Shown here in pieces: positions 21,970 through 33,898 of a stretch of 64,000 nucleotides of DNA. The notes beneath the pieces were generated by a model. That model did no database searches, was not told where the DNA came from, and was given only the letters and a program-made list of their open reading frames with translations. Both the position numbers and the translations under genes were made by a program. Positions within the stretch are counted from its first letter, which is position 1, and every line of letters begins with the position of its first letter. The DNA is from Peptostreptococcaceae bacterium pGA-8. Lineage in GTDB: Bacteria > Bacillota > Clostridia > Peptostreptococcales > Anaerovoracaceae. The stretch spans positions 62,001 to 126,000 of the forward strand of contig FONK01000002.1 in assembly GCA_900112915.1 (NCBI GenBank). The letters are read 5' to 3'.

Positions 21970-22312
21970 GGGGTAAGCCAGGCAGTCGCGTGTGAAAACA
22001 TGAGGAAAGTCCGGGCTCCGCAGGGTAAGGATGCCAGATAACGTCTGGCGTAGGTAACTATAGGGAAAGTGCAACAGAAACATTCCGCCGAAACGGGTAA
22101 TGCCGTGGTAAGGTTGAAATGGTGAGGTAAGAGCTCACCGGCATTATGGAGACATAATGGCCGTGTAAACCCCATCCGGAGCAAGGTCAAATAGGGCACA
22201 AAATATGGCGACCCGTCATAGCCCGGAAGGTAGACCGCATGAGCGTGCAGCGATGTTTACGCCTTAGATAGATGATTGCCAAATACAGAACCCGGCTTAT
22301 AGGCTTACCCAT
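21970..22312 (+). ncRNA. rnpB: RNase P RNA, bacterial class A
   Basis: Catalytic RNA that trims tRNA 5' ends. The P1 helix is GGGTAAGCC (21971-21979) paired with GGCTTACCC (22302-22310). The conserved core is present: GAGGAAAGTCCGGGCTCC near 22002, GTGCAACAGAAA near 22070, GGTAAGAGCTCACCG near 22125, GGAGCAAGGTCAAATAGGG near 22178, and the 3' ACAGAACCCGGCTTATAGG. The arrangement follows the ancestral type A form rather than the Bacillus type B. A T-rich run (22313-22327) follows. It fills the whole gap between the nif3-like gene and the MATE transporter. Confidence 0.97.
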
Positions 22313-22344
22313 CTTTTTTATTTTTTTGGAAAGGAACGAATATT

Positions 22345-26600: not shown

Positions 26601-27899
26601 AGATCTCTAAAGGCTGCCATCAATGAAAGAACAAAAAACAATATTATGGCGTCTCCTAAGGGTTCAGGCTTCCAAAGAATAGCATTTTCAGAATATATGA
26701 GAAAATACTATACCATATTGGTACCTCAAATGTCACCAATACATTTTCAGTATTTGGAGCCTGCATTAAATTCATGTGGCTATAACGCCAAGTTACTTCC
26801 TCCTGTAGATAAGAATTCTATAGAAGAAGGACTGAGATACATAAATAATGATGCGTGTTACCCTACGATTGTAACCTTGGGACAGATTATATCCGCTTTA
26901 AAGTCAGGAGAATATGATTTAAAAAATACCGCCATATTCATGTCTCAAACAGGTGGTGGTTGCAGAGCAAGTAATTATGTTTCTTTGCTTAGAAAAGCAC
27001 TTATCGATCTCGATATGAGAGAAATTCCTGTAGTATCATTTAACATTGCGGGCTTGGAAGAAAATCCGGGATTCAAGATAACACCTAAAATGGGATTTAG
27101 GATGGGCATTGGTGCAATTTATGGGGATCTTATGATGAGATTACTCTACAGAACCAGACCGTATGAAAAGGTTGCCGGCTCAGCAGAGGCTCTTATGGAA
27201 TCGTGGAAGGGTAGAATTGTCGATAATATAATCCATTTTAATCCCGGAACCTATAGAAACAATTTAAAATCCATTGTTAAAGAGTTTGATGAATTACCGA
27301 GAATAGATGCTGTAAAACCTAAAGTTGGCATCGTTGGAGAGATCTTGGTTAAATATCATCCGAATGCCAATAATAATATTGTTGATATTATTGAGGAGGA
27401 AGGTGGAGAAGCGGTTGTTCCCGATTTCATTGACTTCTTCCTTTACGGTATGTATAGCAAAAAATTCAATTACGAAACCTTGTCAGGGACATATTCACAG
27501 TACAAAATAAATCAAATTGCTATAAAGGCAATTGAATGGCTGCGAAAGCCTATGCGTGAAGCCCTGGAGGTAAGCCATAACTTCACACCTCCTGCGTACA
27601 TTGAGGAAACTGCCCATGAGGCGTCTAAAGTGCTTTCTCTCGGAAACCAGTGTGGAGAGGGATGGCTTTTGACCGGGGAAATGATGGAGCTTATAAATAG
27701 TGGTGTAAATAATATACTATGTCTTCAACCCTTTGGTTGTTTGCCAAATCATGTTACAGGAAAGGGCGTTCTAAAGACATTGAGAAATTTAAATCCAAAG
27801 GCCAATATTACGGCTATTGACTATGATCCGGGTGCAAGCGATGTAAATCAGCTTAATCGAATAAAACTGATGATGGCTACAGCTCATAAAAATATTTGA
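23676..27899 (+). CDS. Giant 2-hydroxyacyl-CoA dehydratase activase-like protein
   Basis: A 1407-residue multidomain protein of the BcrAD/BadFG/HgdC superfamily. Domain 1 (1-255) is an ASKHA ATPase with GIDIGSTTVK and the [4Fe-4S] ligands C121 (GTCAGGTG) and C160 (ARCGVF). Domain 2 (about 315-590) repeats this with GIDAGSTTTK, EACSSGCGSF and TRCTVF. A DUF2229-like region follows (about 640-870, with IPRVLNMYENYPFW). The C-terminal half (1005-1407) resembles the dehydratase component HgdB and has many cysteines. Known small activases energise an electron for radical dehydratases; what these large forms serve is not known. No separate dehydratase subunits are adjacent. It overlaps the MATE gene by 4 nt, so the two are probably one transcript. 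Confidence 0.92.
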   Translation: MKLGIDIGSTTVKLVFVDENNKIIYSKYERHMSNVFEKVRELLLDLHKKLGSYNLYPVITGSGGLSLAKKLAVPFEQEVICCSNAVETLIPDTDVAIELGGEDAKITFYGSTVEQRMNGTCAGGTGAFIDQMAVLLNTDAAGLNEAAKNYKMLYPIAARCGVFAKTDIQPLINEGASREDLAASIFQAVVNQTISGLACGHPIRGKIAFLGGPLYFLSELRKRFIETLNINEDDIIFPEEAKFFVAIGAANLAEEKNRGVPIRLEDIIMRISNTEGDNVGETKHIKPLFNNQDEYNQFMNRHSGNRIKRKDIKKAKGRTFLGIDAGSTTTKATLIDEDKYLLYSFYSSNEGNPLEVVKNMMKELYSLLPSSAYIANSCVTGYGEGLIKTAFKVDLGEIETMAHYKAAEEFLPGVEFILDIGGQDMKCMKIKDGAIYNIMLNEACSSGCGSFLETYAKSLNLDTRAFAEEALFAKNPVDLGTRCTVFMNSKVKQAQKEGATVGDISAGLSYSVIKNALYKVIKLRNTDEAGNKIVVQGGTFLNNAVLRSMENVIGKNVVRPDISGLMGAYGAALISREEYIENTESSILSEKALDSFKVKHSSGRCKQCENNCILTINSFGDGSKFITGNRCEKGAGNAQHENSLPNMYFYKLQRLFKYYTPLSDFDATRGTVAIPRVLNMYENYPFWFTFFTELKFKVVLSPQSSKAIYERGIDTISSDTACYPAKLVHGHIKWLVDQGEQWIFYPSINYERSEDVSAPNHYNCPIVATYPEVIANNMDEIFDENLVKFSHPFLPYDNDRRLAEELAKLMLEFHVNKDEVHKAVIKARREQKRFKADVAKQGEYALKFARSHGKKSVVICGRPYHLDPEINHGIDKLVTSNDMVVLTEDSVAHMVDIERPIRVLDQWTYHSRMYKAATFVGRTKDVELIQLNSFGCGLDAVTTDQVEEICNRNNKLYTLLKIDEGSNLGAAKIRIRSLKAAINERTKNNIMASPKGSGFQRIAFSEYMRKYYTILVPQMSPIHFQYLEPALNSCGYNAKLLPPVDKNSIEEGLRYINNDACYPTIVTLGQIISALKSGEYDLKNTAIFMSQTGGGCRASNYVSLLRKALIDLDMREIPVVSFNIAGLEENPGFKITPKMGFRMGIGAIYGDLMMRLLYRTRPYEKVAGSAEALMESWKGRIVDNIIHFNPGTYRNNLKSIVKEFDELPRIDAVKPKVGIVGEILVKYHPNANNNIVDIIEEEGGEAVVPDFIDFFLYGMYSKKFNYETLSGTYSQYKINQIAIKAIEWLRKPMREALEVSHNFTPPAYIEETAHEASKVLSLGNQCGEGWLLTGEMMELINSGVNNILCLQPFGCLPNHVTGKGVLKTLRNLNPKANITAIDYDPGASDVNQLNRIKLMMATAHKNI

Positions 27900-27924
27900 A
27901 ATAAGCATGATAGTATTGTATAAT
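27896..27924 (+). promoter_or_regulatory. Strong sigma-A promoter for yebC
   Basis: TTGAAA (27896-27901), a 17-nt spacer and a perfect TATAAT (27919-27924). The -35 box covers the stop codon of the activase-like gene. AAGGAGGT at 27949-27956 is the strong ribosome binding site of yebC. Confidence 0.8.
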
Positions 27925-27962: not shown

Positions 27963-28688
27963 GTGGGTAGACACGGGACGATAGCAGGAAGAAAGGCAGC
28001 ACAGGATTCAAAAAGAGCAGCAATGTTCACAAAGTATGCCAAGGCGATTACAGTTGCTGCAAAGGATGGCGGAGATCCTGAATACAACTCGGGATTAAGA
28101 CTTGCAATTGAAAAAGCAAAGGCAATCAGTATGCCTAATGACAATATTCAAAGAGCCATTAAAAAGGGTACAGGCGAGCTGGGTGGAGCCTCTTATGAGG
28201 AATTAACCTTTGAAGGATATGGTGCCGGTGGAGTTGCAGTAATAGTTGACTGCCTAACTGATAATTCCAATAGAACCACATCCTTTGTGAGATCAACCTT
28301 TGATAAGCATGGCGGAAATTTAGGAACACCGGGATGCGTGTCCTATATGTTCTCACGAAAAGGCTTTATAGCCATTGAAAAAACCGAGGAGATTGTCGAA
28401 GACGATTTGATGGAAACTGCTCTTGAAGCAGGGGCCGAAGATATGAATACTACTGAGGACAGCTTTGAGGTGATAACCGAACCTCAGGCTTTTGCAGAAG
28501 TTCTGGAAGCTATAACCAATGCGGGATATGAGACTTTTGAAGCAGATATAGAATATCTTCCATCTATGGAGTCAACTCCGGGAGAATTTGATATTCCTAA
28601 GCTAAGGAAGATGATAGACATCCTTGAAGATAATGACGATATTCAAAAAGTACATACAAATTGCGGTGTAGATCTTTACGCTGAATAA
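27963..28688 (+). CDS. yebC: YebC/PmpR/TACO1-family protein
   Basis: A conserved three-domain protein of 241 residues. The start MGRHGTIAGRKAAQD and the motifs MPNDNIQRAIKKGTG and EGYGAGGVAVIV are diagnostic. The family is annotated as a transcriptional regulator, and the mitochondrial TACO1 and some bacterial members act in translation of difficult sequences, so the role is not fixed. The GTG start at 27963 has AAGGAGGT 6 nt upstream. The gene has its own promoter and its end contains the promoter of the 6S RNA. Confidence 0.95.
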   Translation: MGRHGTIAGRKAAQDSKRAAMFTKYAKAITVAAKDGGDPEYNSGLRLAIEKAKAISMPNDNIQRAIKKGTGELGGASYEELTFEGYGAGGVAVIVDCLTDNSNRTTSFVRSTFDKHGGNLGTPGCVSYMFSRKGFIAIEKTEEIVEDDLMETALEAGAEDMNTTEDSFEVITEPQAFAEVLEAITNAGYETFEADIEYLPSMESTPGEFDIPKLRKMIDILEDNDDIQKVHTNCGVDLYAE

Positions 28689-28689
28689 T
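28661..28689 (+). promoter_or_regulatory. Predicted promoter of the 6S RNA
   Basis: TTGCGG (28661-28666), a 17-nt spacer and AATAAT (28684-28689), in the end of yebC. It predicts a transcript start near 28696, at the 5' strand of the outer 6S helix. Confidence 0.5.
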
Positions 28690-28694
28690 TTGTT

Positions 28695-28877
28695 GAAACA
28701 AGCCTAGAGCCTTCGTTAAGGAACCATAATTGAACCTACACTACTTAAAAGGGAATTTGCGTTCATTTGCAGATGCTGTGCCCGGATTTGTCAGGGATTG
28801 CAGAAACAAAGACAGAATACCCACCTATCATTCGATAGGCATCAATTATATCCTGACGGGGTTTTCTGGGTTTTTTT
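28695..28877 (+). ncRNA. ssrS: 6S RNA
   Basis: Regulatory RNA that mimics an open promoter and holds the SigA-RNA polymerase holoenzyme. I infer it from the fold, read by hand. Outer helices pair 28703-28709 with 28864-28870 and 28711-28717 with 28855-28861. The closing stem pairs AGGA and ATAATTGA (28719-28733) with TCAATTAT and TCCT (28842-28854). A large central bubble follows, whose 3' side holds a small hairpin (CCTATC-ATTC-GATAGG, 28824-28839), as in Firmicute 6S RNAs. The apical arm pairs GGG/CCC, ATT/AAT, TTTG/CAAA, CTG/CAG and CCC/GGG. Seven T (28871-28877) end it. The stretch has no coding frame. Confidence 0.82.
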
Positions 28878-28890
28878 ATAGGTGAAATTT

Positions 28891-31485
28891 ATGAAAAAAA
28901 TTATTGTAATAGACGGCAACAGTTTAATAAATCGAGCATACTTTGCAATGCAGAGACCTATGATTACAAAGAAAGGCATATATACCCAGGGAATATATGG
29001 CTTTTTAAATATGCTATTTAAGATTTTAGATGATTATAAGCCGACTCATATGGCTGTTGCCTGGGATATGAAAAGCCCAACCTTCAGGCACAGGTCCTTT
29101 GCCGAATACAAAGCCGGAAGAAAGTCTATGCCTATGGAATTAGCTATGGAAATACCAATAATGAAGGATATTTTAACGGCTATGAATATTTCTAATTTAG
29201 AATGTGAAGGCTATGAAGCGGATGATATAATTGGAACAATTGCGAAAACTGCTGAAGCTGAGGGATTAGACACACTCATTATAACAGGAGATAAGGATGC
29301 ACTGCAGCTGGCTACAGATACGACCAAGGTTCTGATTACTAAAAAAGGAATTACTGAATTTAAGCTTTATGACAGAGCTGCAATTATAGAAGAATATTCT
29401 CTTACCCCTACACAATTTATTGATTTAAAGGGTTTAATGGGTGATAAGTCTGATAACATTCCGGGCATTCCGGGTGTAGGTCAGGTTACAGGAATTAAGC
29501 TTTTAACTGAATTCGGCTCAATGGAAAACCTTTTAGCCAATTCTGAAGCTATAAAAAATGCGAAGCTGAAGACAAAGGTGCAGGATTATGAGATGCAGGC
29601 TGCTATGAGCAAAAAACTGGCAACCATTTTCACCGAAGTGCCAATTGATGAAAAAATAGAAGATTTTAAATTAAACGGCTTTGACAATGACCGATTATTG
29701 GAGCTTTTTAAAGATCTTGAGTTCAAGTCATTCATAAAAAGACTTGATATTTCCAATAACAAGGCAGAAATTGTGTTAAATAAACCGGATATTTTCATCG
29801 GAAGCTTTCAGGCGGCTGTAAAGGAAATTGAAAATTTAAGTGACGAGGAGAGCTTATATATTAAGCTTGTCTGTCGAACAAGTCATGTTGAAATACCTAT
29901 GATTGAGGCACTTGCTTTATCTACGAGGGATAGATGCTTTGTATTTGACCAACCCTTGTTTATGGGTGAAATTTTTCGGCTTTTGAAGAAAAAAAGGTTT
30001 AAGTTTAAGGGATTTGCAATTAAACCATATCTGTATGCTTTAGCTATAAATAACCTTGGAACTTTTTCCGCTAAGGCTGATGTTGAAATTGGTGAATATG
30101 TTTTAAACCCTTCAAGAAGCAAGTATGAATTTTCTTCAATCGCAATGGATAGGCTTAATATAGACTATTCAACTGAAGACTTTGACGATTTAAACAATAT
30201 AGACACATATTTTGCTGCAATTGCCGCCATAGAGGAACTTCAGCGTAAAGAGCTTAAATCAGAAAATCTATGGGATTTATATGAAAATATAGAAATGCCA
30301 TTGGTTGAAGTCTTGGTTGATATGGAAGCCACAGGGATAAAAACTGAAGTAGATATCCTTAAGAAGCTTGGAAAAGAAAACGAGATAGAAATAGCTAAGC
30401 TGGAAGCAGAAATTTATGAAATTGCAGGAGAAAAGTTTAATGTAAATTCGCCTCAACAGCTAGGCAACATATTGTTTGAAAAAATGGAGCTTCCTTTTGG
30501 AAAGAAAAACAAAACAGGATATTCAACCAATGTGGATGTACTTGAAAAGCTCAAGGAGCATACTCCTATAGCTGAGAAAATTTTGGAATATAGGGGGTTA
30601 ACTAAGCTAAACAGCACCTATGTTTCCGGACTGTCAAGTTTAATTTCCGACGATGGAAGAATTAGACCCCATTTTATGCAAACTGTTGCTGCAACAGGCA
30701 GAATAAGCTGTGTAGAACCGAATTTACAAAACATACCTGTTAAGACCAAAATAGGCCGTGAAATTCGAAAAGCTTTTGTAGCTGATGAAGGGAAGGTTTT
30801 GGTTGGTGCTGATTATTCTCAAATTGAACTCAGGGTACTAGCTCATTTGTCCGGTGATGAAAACTTAAAGAATGCCTTTAATAGCGGAAGGGACATTCAC
30901 AAAATGACAGCTTCAAAGGTGTTTAATCTGCCTTTAGAGGATGTTACATCCCTGGACAGATCCAAGGCTAAGGCAATAAACTTTGGAGTTATATACGGCA
31001 TGAGCGGGTTTGGACTTTCTGAAGAGCTGGGAATTTCAATAAAAGCAGCAGAAAATTACATCAAAGACTATTTTTCAAAATATGCCGCTGTAAAAGAATA
31101 TATGGATAATGAAATTGCAAAATGCAAGAATTTGGGGTACACTTTAACTCTGATGGGAAGAAGGAGATTTGTGCCTGAAATTTCAGCATCCAATTATATG
31201 ACCAGGCAATTCGGAGAAAGATTGGCCATGAATACTCCAATTCAAGGATCTGCAGCAGATATTATAAAAATGGCTATGATTAAGGTTCATGATAGATTAA
31301 AGAAGGAATTGCCAAGTGCAAAACTGATTTTGCAAATTCACGACGAGCTTATAATTGAAGGGAACAAAGAAGATGCCGGCAAGATTGAAAGCCTGCTAAG
31401 AGAGTCGATGGAGAGTGCGACTCTTTTGTCAGTAAAGCTGGAGTGTAATGTTGCCACATCTCAATCTTGGTTTGATTTAAAATGA
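28891..31485 (+). CDS. polA: DNA polymerase I
   Basis: Fills gaps and removes RNA primers. The N-terminal 290 residues are the 5'-3' exonuclease, with DGNSLINRAY, YEADDIIGT, ITGDKDALQL and GDKSDNIPGIPGVG. The middle domain lacks the DEDD carboxylates of a proofreading exonuclease. The polymerase domain has motif A (GADYSQIELRVLAH), motif B (RSKAKAINFGVIYGMS) and motif C (QIHDELI). The length is 864 residues. The ATG at 28891 is chosen because AGGTGA lies 5 nt before it; a GTG three codons upstream overlaps that site. The gene starts 13 nt after the 6S RNA T run and ends overlapping coaE by 4 nt. Confidence 0.97.
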   Translation: MKKIIVIDGNSLINRAYFAMQRPMITKKGIYTQGIYGFLNMLFKILDDYKPTHMAVAWDMKSPTFRHRSFAEYKAGRKSMPMELAMEIPIMKDILTAMNISNLECEGYEADDIIGTIAKTAEAEGLDTLIITGDKDALQLATDTTKVLITKKGITEFKLYDRAAIIEEYSLTPTQFIDLKGLMGDKSDNIPGIPGVGQVTGIKLLTEFGSMENLLANSEAIKNAKLKTKVQDYEMQAAMSKKLATIFTEVPIDEKIEDFKLNGFDNDRLLELFKDLEFKSFIKRLDISNNKAEIVLNKPDIFIGSFQAAVKEIENLSDEESLYIKLVCRTSHVEIPMIEALALSTRDRCFVFDQPLFMGEIFRLLKKKRFKFKGFAIKPYLYALAINNLGTFSAKADVEIGEYVLNPSRSKYEFSSIAMDRLNIDYSTEDFDDLNNIDTYFAAIAAIEELQRKELKSENLWDLYENIEMPLVEVLVDMEATGIKTEVDILKKLGKENEIEIAKLEAEIYEIAGEKFNVNSPQQLGNILFEKMELPFGKKNKTGYSTNVDVLEKLKEHTPIAEKILEYRGLTKLNSTYVSGLSSLISDDGRIRPHFMQTVAATGRISCVEPNLQNIPVKTKIGREIRKAFVADEGKVLVGADYSQIELRVLAHLSGDENLKNAFNSGRDIHKMTASKVFNLPLEDVTSLDRSKAKAINFGVIYGMSGFGLSEELGISIKAAENYIKDYFSKYAAVKEYMDNEIAKCKNLGYTLTLMGRRRFVPEISASNYMTRQFGERLAMNTPIQGSAADIIKMAMIKVHDRLKKELPSAKLILQIHDELIIEGNKEDAGKIESLLRESMESATLLSVKLECNVATSQSWFDLK

Positions 31486-33723: not shown

Positions 33724-33805
33724 GCGGTCGTGGCGGAATGGCAGACGCGCACGCTTGAGGGGCGTGTGGGCAACCGTGCTGGTTCGAGTCCAGTCGACCG
33801 CACCA
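33724..33805 (+). tRNA. tRNA-Leu (anticodon GAG)
   Basis: The acceptor stem is GCGGTCG paired with CGACCGC, followed by discriminator A and an encoded CCA (33803-33805). The anticodon stem CACGC/GCGTG closes the loop TTGAGGG, giving GAG for CUC/CUU codons. A long variable arm and GGTTCGAGTCC T arm fit a class II leucine tRNA. Confidence 0.95.
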
Positions 33806-33811
33806 ATATTT

Positions 33812-33898
33812 GCCGGCGTGATGGAATTGGCAGACGTGCAGGATTCAAAATCCTGTGGTGGCAACACCGTATGGGTTCGACCCCCATCGCCGGCACCA
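33812..33898 (+). tRNA. tRNA-Leu (anticodon CAA)
   Basis: The acceptor stem is GCCGGCG paired with CGCCGGC, then A and an encoded CCA. The anticodon stem CAGGA/TCCTG closes TTCAAAA, giving CAA for UUG. The variable arm GTGGTGGCAACACC is long, as in tRNA-Leu. Six T follow directly at 33899-33904 and may end the transcript. Confidence 0.95.

Follow-up and report, generated by a model that had tools for sequence, protein, structure and literature searches.

How is a 6S RNA gene transcribed when it lies in the 202-nucleotide (nt) gap between two protein genes? The question is raised by a locus of Peptostreptococcaceae bacterium pGA-8 (assembly GCA_900112915.1, contig FONK01000002.1, positions 62,001 to 126,000), in which a 6S RNA is encoded between the end of yebC at 28688 and the ATG of polA at 28891; all coordinates refer to this 64,000-nt stretch, hereafter the window. 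6S RNA acts as a brake on RNA polymerase carrying the main sigma factor and builds up late in growth, and the common picture of its gene is that of an isolated unit served by a strong promoter. A sequence-only reading of the window had suggested that polA may be read through from a 6S promoter. Here we find that 6S genes placed this tightly behind yebC have a sigma-A-like promoter at a rate no different from chance. With modest confidence we favour a yebC-6S-polA unit, in which 6S RNA would form the 3' end of the yebC message, terminating itself and being released by processing, while read-through would supply polA. The features on which the argument turns are the following.

27896..27924, + strand: sigma-A-like yebC promoter, TTGAAA, 17-nt spacer, TATAAT (score 12.54, p 0.010 against dinucleotide shuffles).
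27963..28688, + strand: yebC (TACO1/YebC family), 241 amino acids (aa); open reading frame (ORF) with Pfam PF01709 (3.5e-56) and PF20772.
28661..28689, + strand: sole 6S promoter candidate near the RNA start, TTGCGG, 17-nt spacer, AATAAT, within the yebC end (score 6.46, p 0.27).
28686-28688, + strand: stop codon of yebC, seen in the sequence.
28698..28876, + strand: 6S RNA, RF00013 (full-length cmscan match, 63.6 bits; fold z -3.28; pair changes).
28733..28740, + strand: AACCTACA, the strand entering the central bubble, likely the product RNA (pRNA) template (invariant in 22/22 aligned sequences).
28824..28839, + strand: small CCTATC/GATAGG hairpin flanking the central bubble on its 3' side (minimum free energy and centroid folds; largely conserved in the alignment).
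28855..28877, + strand: 3' arm of the closing stem and U7 run (28871-28877), a putative self-terminator (pairing with the 5' arm; T-run counts).
28880..28884, + strand: polA ribosome binding site AGGTG, seen in the sequence.
28891..31485, + strand: polA, DNA polymerase I, 864 aa (ORF; Pfam DNA_pol_A, 1.2e-156).

The element is a genuine, ordinary 6S RNA. The Rfam model RF00013 matches it over positions 1-187 of 187, scoring 63.6 bits where the gathering cut-off is 46.4 (E 3e-10), which bears out the earlier placement of a 6S RNA between yebC and polA. The fold of 28695-28878 beats all 200 dinucleotide shuffles (z -3.28) and comprises a closing stem, a central bubble (5' side at about 28734-28750) and a 3'-side hairpin at 28824-28839; an alignment of 22 relatives shows two-sided, pair-keeping changes in 15 of the 37 consensus pairs. 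The fold and the 22-sequence alignment thus agree with the helices, wide bubble and 3'-side hairpin that had been drawn by eye, and the closing stem, central bubble, apical stem-loop and length of about 180 nt that mark 6S RNAs are all present. At the edge of the bubble, AACCTACA is unchanged in every aligned sequence, as would suit its likely role as pRNA template. A second 6S gene elsewhere in the genome was considered and rejected: when the genome was searched with the 6S model up to E 10, 28698-28876 was the only match.

What, then, drives this gene? Promoters were scored with a sigma-A-like model of hand-set weights (-35 and -10 elements, a spacer of 15-19 nt and a bonus for an extended -10) against dinucleotide shuffles. 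For 6S, the -10 element was allowed to lie anywhere between 28 nt ahead of the 6S model start and 3 nt past it, and a promoter was called at p<0.05. The 6S match in the window begins 9 nt past the yebC stop codon, and the best site ahead of it is not above shuffles (p 0.27); its -10 element coincides with GAA-TAA-T, in which the final yebC codon and the stop are followed by one further base. The same scan was applied to two sets of loci from the family, in which layouts were called tight where yebC stops at most 20 nt before 6S and far where the gap exceeds 60 nt. The first set comprises 110 loci drawn from 134 genomes with an Rfam match (the 30 best and 80 chosen from the list; L002 was dropped as a duplicate of L052), of which 109 were scored, the upstream sequence of L055 being too short. 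The second comprises 93 loci from genomes absent from the first, namely the best-ranked new matches of R1, a model based on the sequences of 22 loci that are tight or adjacent to polA, and 20 hand-picked genomes; three poorly matching loci (L279-L281) were kept. R1 finds matches in 310 of 349 genomes. Since it was built on tight or polA-adjacent loci, the ranking of the second set may favour that layout; and since the Rfam search with stricter filters missed the window's own genome, the 63 genomes without a match in it do not count as absences.

In the first set a 6S promoter was found in 1/17 tight loci, 11/27 with a gap of 21-60 nt, 24/39 far loci and 17/26 in which no yebC was found. The second set gave 2/26, 4/28, 14/20 and 14/19, respectively. 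The difference between tight and far loci has a Fisher p of 1e-4 in the first set and 2e-5 in the second, for which the test was left unchanged; the two sets disagree on the 21-60 nt group. Altogether p<0.05 is attained by 3 of the 43 tight loci, roughly as many as chance would give; in other families of the order, 26 of 30 loci have a 6S promoter. Applied to yebC, the scorer picks up a promoter in 13 of the 17 tight loci (this test covered 76 of the 83 loci with yebC), and the method is therefore able to detect promoters in these genomes. A promoter deeper within yebC was also considered and rejected: scanned against synonymous shuffles, the last 65 codons of yebC yielded one in only 1/17 tight loci (L069). 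The 6S promoter that the sequence-only reading had taken as the source of transcription is thus detectable neither in the window (p 0.27) nor across the layout (1/17 and 2/26). As 6S shows no promoter of its own and the closest strong one belongs to yebC, a yebC-6S-polA unit becomes more likely, and the RNA is probably cut from the message of the preceding gene.

One could still place a genuine 6S promoter in the yebC end, with polA read through from there across the terminator. The window candidate has a 17-nt spacer and lies at a suitable distance from 6S, three tight loci offer a better match (L069, p 0.020; L190, p 0.005; L275, p 0.020), and 6S genes in looser layouts mostly do have a promoter; moreover, a hairpin at the yebC end could keep yebC transcripts out of 6S. 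Yet the three matches are close to what chance would give among 43 tight loci, the window site is no better than shuffles, and its -10 element is not kept within the genus, being absent from the same-genus loci L032 and L033. We therefore regard this explanation as rather unlikely. A promoter for an alternative sigma factor in the same place, for example one of stationary phase, would be invisible to our scans, which covered sigma-A sites only, and would answer the need for an abundant RNA. Two observations make such a promoter improbable: the upstream nucleotides, compared by eye in 14 loci, vary beyond what the YebC peptide fixes, and 6S genes of the family that sit in looser layouts carry sigma-A-like sites.

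The 3' end of the gene raises a second question, namely how transcription would end there and still reach polA. The ribosome binding site of polA does start 3 nt past the T run, as the sequence-only reading had it, the run occupying 28871-28877 and AGGTG starting at 28880. Its terminator stands in part: the T run is there, and a good local hairpin before it is not, the stem at this position being the long-range closing stem of 6S RNA. For 28840-28878 the fold is not above that of shuffles (z 0.60), the best local fold, of 28820-28878, is only slightly above them (z -1.10; 28 of 200 shuffles are equally good), and the list of predicted terminators in the window has none on the + strand at the 6S 3' end. 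What precedes the U run is hence not the local GC-rich hairpin of a classic intrinsic terminator. In both fold and consensus, the closing stem abuts U7, a putative site of transcript release; if the U run were a terminator, 6S RNA itself would serve as the terminator hairpin. The run is well retained. At least five T at the 6S 3' end are seen in 86/110 loci of the first set and 66/93 of the second, in 31/35 polA-adjacent loci and in 16/19 loci where yebC is tight and polA follows, compared with 238 of 10150 stretches of 18 nt drawn at random from family loci (2.3%); the count in other families of the order is 9/30. Under a stricter hairpin rule, 6 of the 43 tight loci have a local hairpin within the final 60 nt of the 6S RNA. 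The window's fold also showed a hairpin by which a read-through RNA could mask the start codon of polA; it was rejected, the stretch folding no better than shuffles (z -0.17).

No promoter above shuffles was found within 160 nt before polA in the window, and in the first set 13 of the 14 loci with polA adjacent likewise lack one in this interval (1/14 has one). Where another gene follows closely behind 6S, 12/16 loci are without a promoter, and where the next gene is more distant, 8/28 have one. Read-through into polA, as the sequence-only reading proposed, is therefore plausible, and only its origin at a 6S promoter falls away; judged from the sequence, the yebC promoter is the more likely source. 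The missing polA promoter was also entertained as evidence for a special link between 6S and polA, and rejected, because polA situated away from 6S lacks one as often. It seems that polA in this family relies on upstream transcription wherever it is placed; next to 6S, such transcription must cross the 6S U run.

The sequence-only reading had called the junction unusual. Its tight 6S-polA spacing is real and its uniqueness is not, as polA lies within 120 nt behind 6S in 35 of 203 same-family loci (14/110 in the first set and 21/93 in the second). The search returned five genomes of the window's genus, and in each of them yebC stops at most 11 nt before 6S and polA starts at most 113 nt behind it. 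Among the 43 tight loci, the yebC stop lies 2-19 nt before the closing stem, and 3-9 nt before it in 32. In the 30 loci from other families, no yebC and no polA turned up within flanks of about 1.5 kb around 6S; the tight yebC-6S arrangement hence belongs to this family and the 6S-polA arrangement to parts of it. A locus annotated as Lachnospiraceae (L112), one of seven distant loci from a PolA search, had no Rfam match over the cut-off in 8.6 kb.

This gene order could reflect no more than gene packing in a small genome, where any upstream promoter would serve polA and 6S would have no regulatory effect on it. Such a view is compatible with a yebC-6S-polA unit and differs from it on regulation alone. 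That the gene behind 6S varies (as counted over the 110 loci) and that polA elsewhere in the family is usually without a promoter too would both fit it. However, the order is kept throughout the returned genomes of the genus, and the U run retained in 31/35 polA-adjacent loci means that a transcript from upstream must cross a likely terminator, which counts against mere packing. We hold this explanation to be possible, if not the one to be preferred.

Based on these observations, the sequence of events in a yebC-6S-polA unit would be as follows. RNA polymerase would start at the strong yebC promoter (27896-27924), transcribe yebC and meet the 6S sequence 9 nt after its stop codon, so that the two would be co-transcribed. 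The 6S closing stem and U run would end most transcripts, and 5' processing would free 6S RNA from the 3' end of the yebC message. Some polymerases would continue past the U run and reach polA, the ribosome binding site of which begins 3 nt further on. A more elaborate version, which we think highly doubtful, would make the junction a translation-sensing attenuator with 6S RNA as one of its outcomes, a brake on RNA polymerase being traded against a repair polymerase. The ribosome finishing yebC would then cover the 5' arm of the transcription-ending stem. Busy ribosomes would block the stem and let the polymerase continue into polA; in starved cells the stem would form, 6S RNA would be released and polA would fall.

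Several points weigh against the yebC-6S-polA unit. The scorer finds a promoter in just 62-74% of far and no-yebC loci and, being sigma-A-only and hand-weighted, could miss an atypical one. On a YebC tree of 79 rows, the tight layout requires merely 7 changes (6S-polA requires 6), and independent pairs favour the expected direction (2.9 vs 0.1) without reaching significance (median p 0.25). The yebC promoter in tight loci is no stronger than elsewhere (Mann-Whitney p 0.81), and it would need to supply an RNA that has to be abundant. Furthermore, the end of yebC (28660-28683) can form a hairpin on the + strand, called as weakly terminator-like at 28664-28683 with a poor tail (AATAATTTGT), which could separate yebC from 6S; under the stricter rule, no such hairpin is called in any of the 43 tight loci, the window included. 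Lastly, the missing polA promoter does not point specifically to a link between 6S and polA: among loci with polA away from 6S, a promoter was found in 5/25 and lacking in 20/25 (locus L158 of this control was grouped by hand).

The genes behind 6S in the family deserve separate mention. Over the 110 loci, the next gene belongs to a formate/nitrite transporter cluster in 14, polA in 14, a formate-tetrahydrofolate ligase (FTHFS) cluster in 10, an OPT-like cluster in 10, an FTCD_C cluster in 6 and a CDP-alcohol transferase cluster (CDP, cytidine diphosphate) in 5. One-carbon genes thus follow 6S directly in 30/110 loci (transporter 14, ligase 10, FTCD_C cyclodeaminase 6; L003, L006 and L009 are examples), the clusters having been named by a Pfam run on one member each. 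None of the 30 other-family loci has these clusters behind 6S, and they may represent one inherited gene block. Genes other than polA, too, start very close behind 6S: with the script's choice of start codon, the next gene lies at most 40 nt away in 28/110 first-set loci, so that a tight 3' junction is a general habit in the family.

Elsewhere in the window, an RNase P RNA of class A (RF00010, 266.7 bits) lies at 21970-22315 on the + strand, 6.7 kb upstream of 6S. The polA product, which starts at the ATG at 28891, matches PF00476, PF02739 and PF01367, and its stop overlaps the start of the next ORF by 4 nt (31482-31485), so that polA seems to head an operon. The protein encoded by that ORF is a P-loop protein, probably coaE (named by eye), and two tRNA genes separated by 9 nt follow the polA region at 33724-33895 (+).

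If the proposed unit is real, the supply of 6S RNA would depend on yebC transcription, and perhaps on yebC translation, instead of a dedicated promoter. The replicated promoter deficit where 6S abuts yebC suggests a protein-gene-derived 6S RNA in one bacterial family, and the old question of why 6S genes are so often joined to protein genes, be it ygfA, purK or, in this family, polA or one-carbon genes, becomes testable by comparison.

That 6S genes join protein genes was already known; new here are the placement between yebC and polA and the missing promoter. Among open-access papers, to which the search was confined with subscription papers outside it, none was found that names both 6S RNA and yebC, and in three of the ten naming 6S RNA and polA, the portions of text available have polA flanking another small RNA or unrelated. 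The 6S RNA of E. coli has promoters of its own, as does cyanobacterial 6Sa, for which a joint transcript with purK was reportedly described in 1997. According to the accessible part of one report, E. coli 6S RNA is co-transcribed with the downstream gene ygfA (PMC2848244). Our locus likewise has a protein gene behind 6S, with co-transcription as a proposal; it differs in having polA in that place, yebC before it and no detectable 6S promoter, and the one-carbon genes that recur behind 6S in the family recall ygfA. Cyanobacterial 6Sa/SsaA (Yfr7) lies directly behind a protein gene as well, purK there and yebC here, as far as the excerpted text goes (PMC1242208). In lactic acid bacteria, the available passages describe a neighbourhood similarly conserved at family level with other genes, rarA upstream and uspA downstream, and Weissella 6S candidates that all have a TATAAT -10 element (PMC8414754). 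A precedent for a promoterless 6S gene comes from B. thuringiensis, where, in the part of the source at hand, ssrSB lacks a promoter and is transcribed together with ssrSA into a precursor, which may then be processed (PMC7726162). The leader there is another 6S RNA, whereas here it would be a protein gene, yebC, with its stop codon 9 nt ahead of the RNA.

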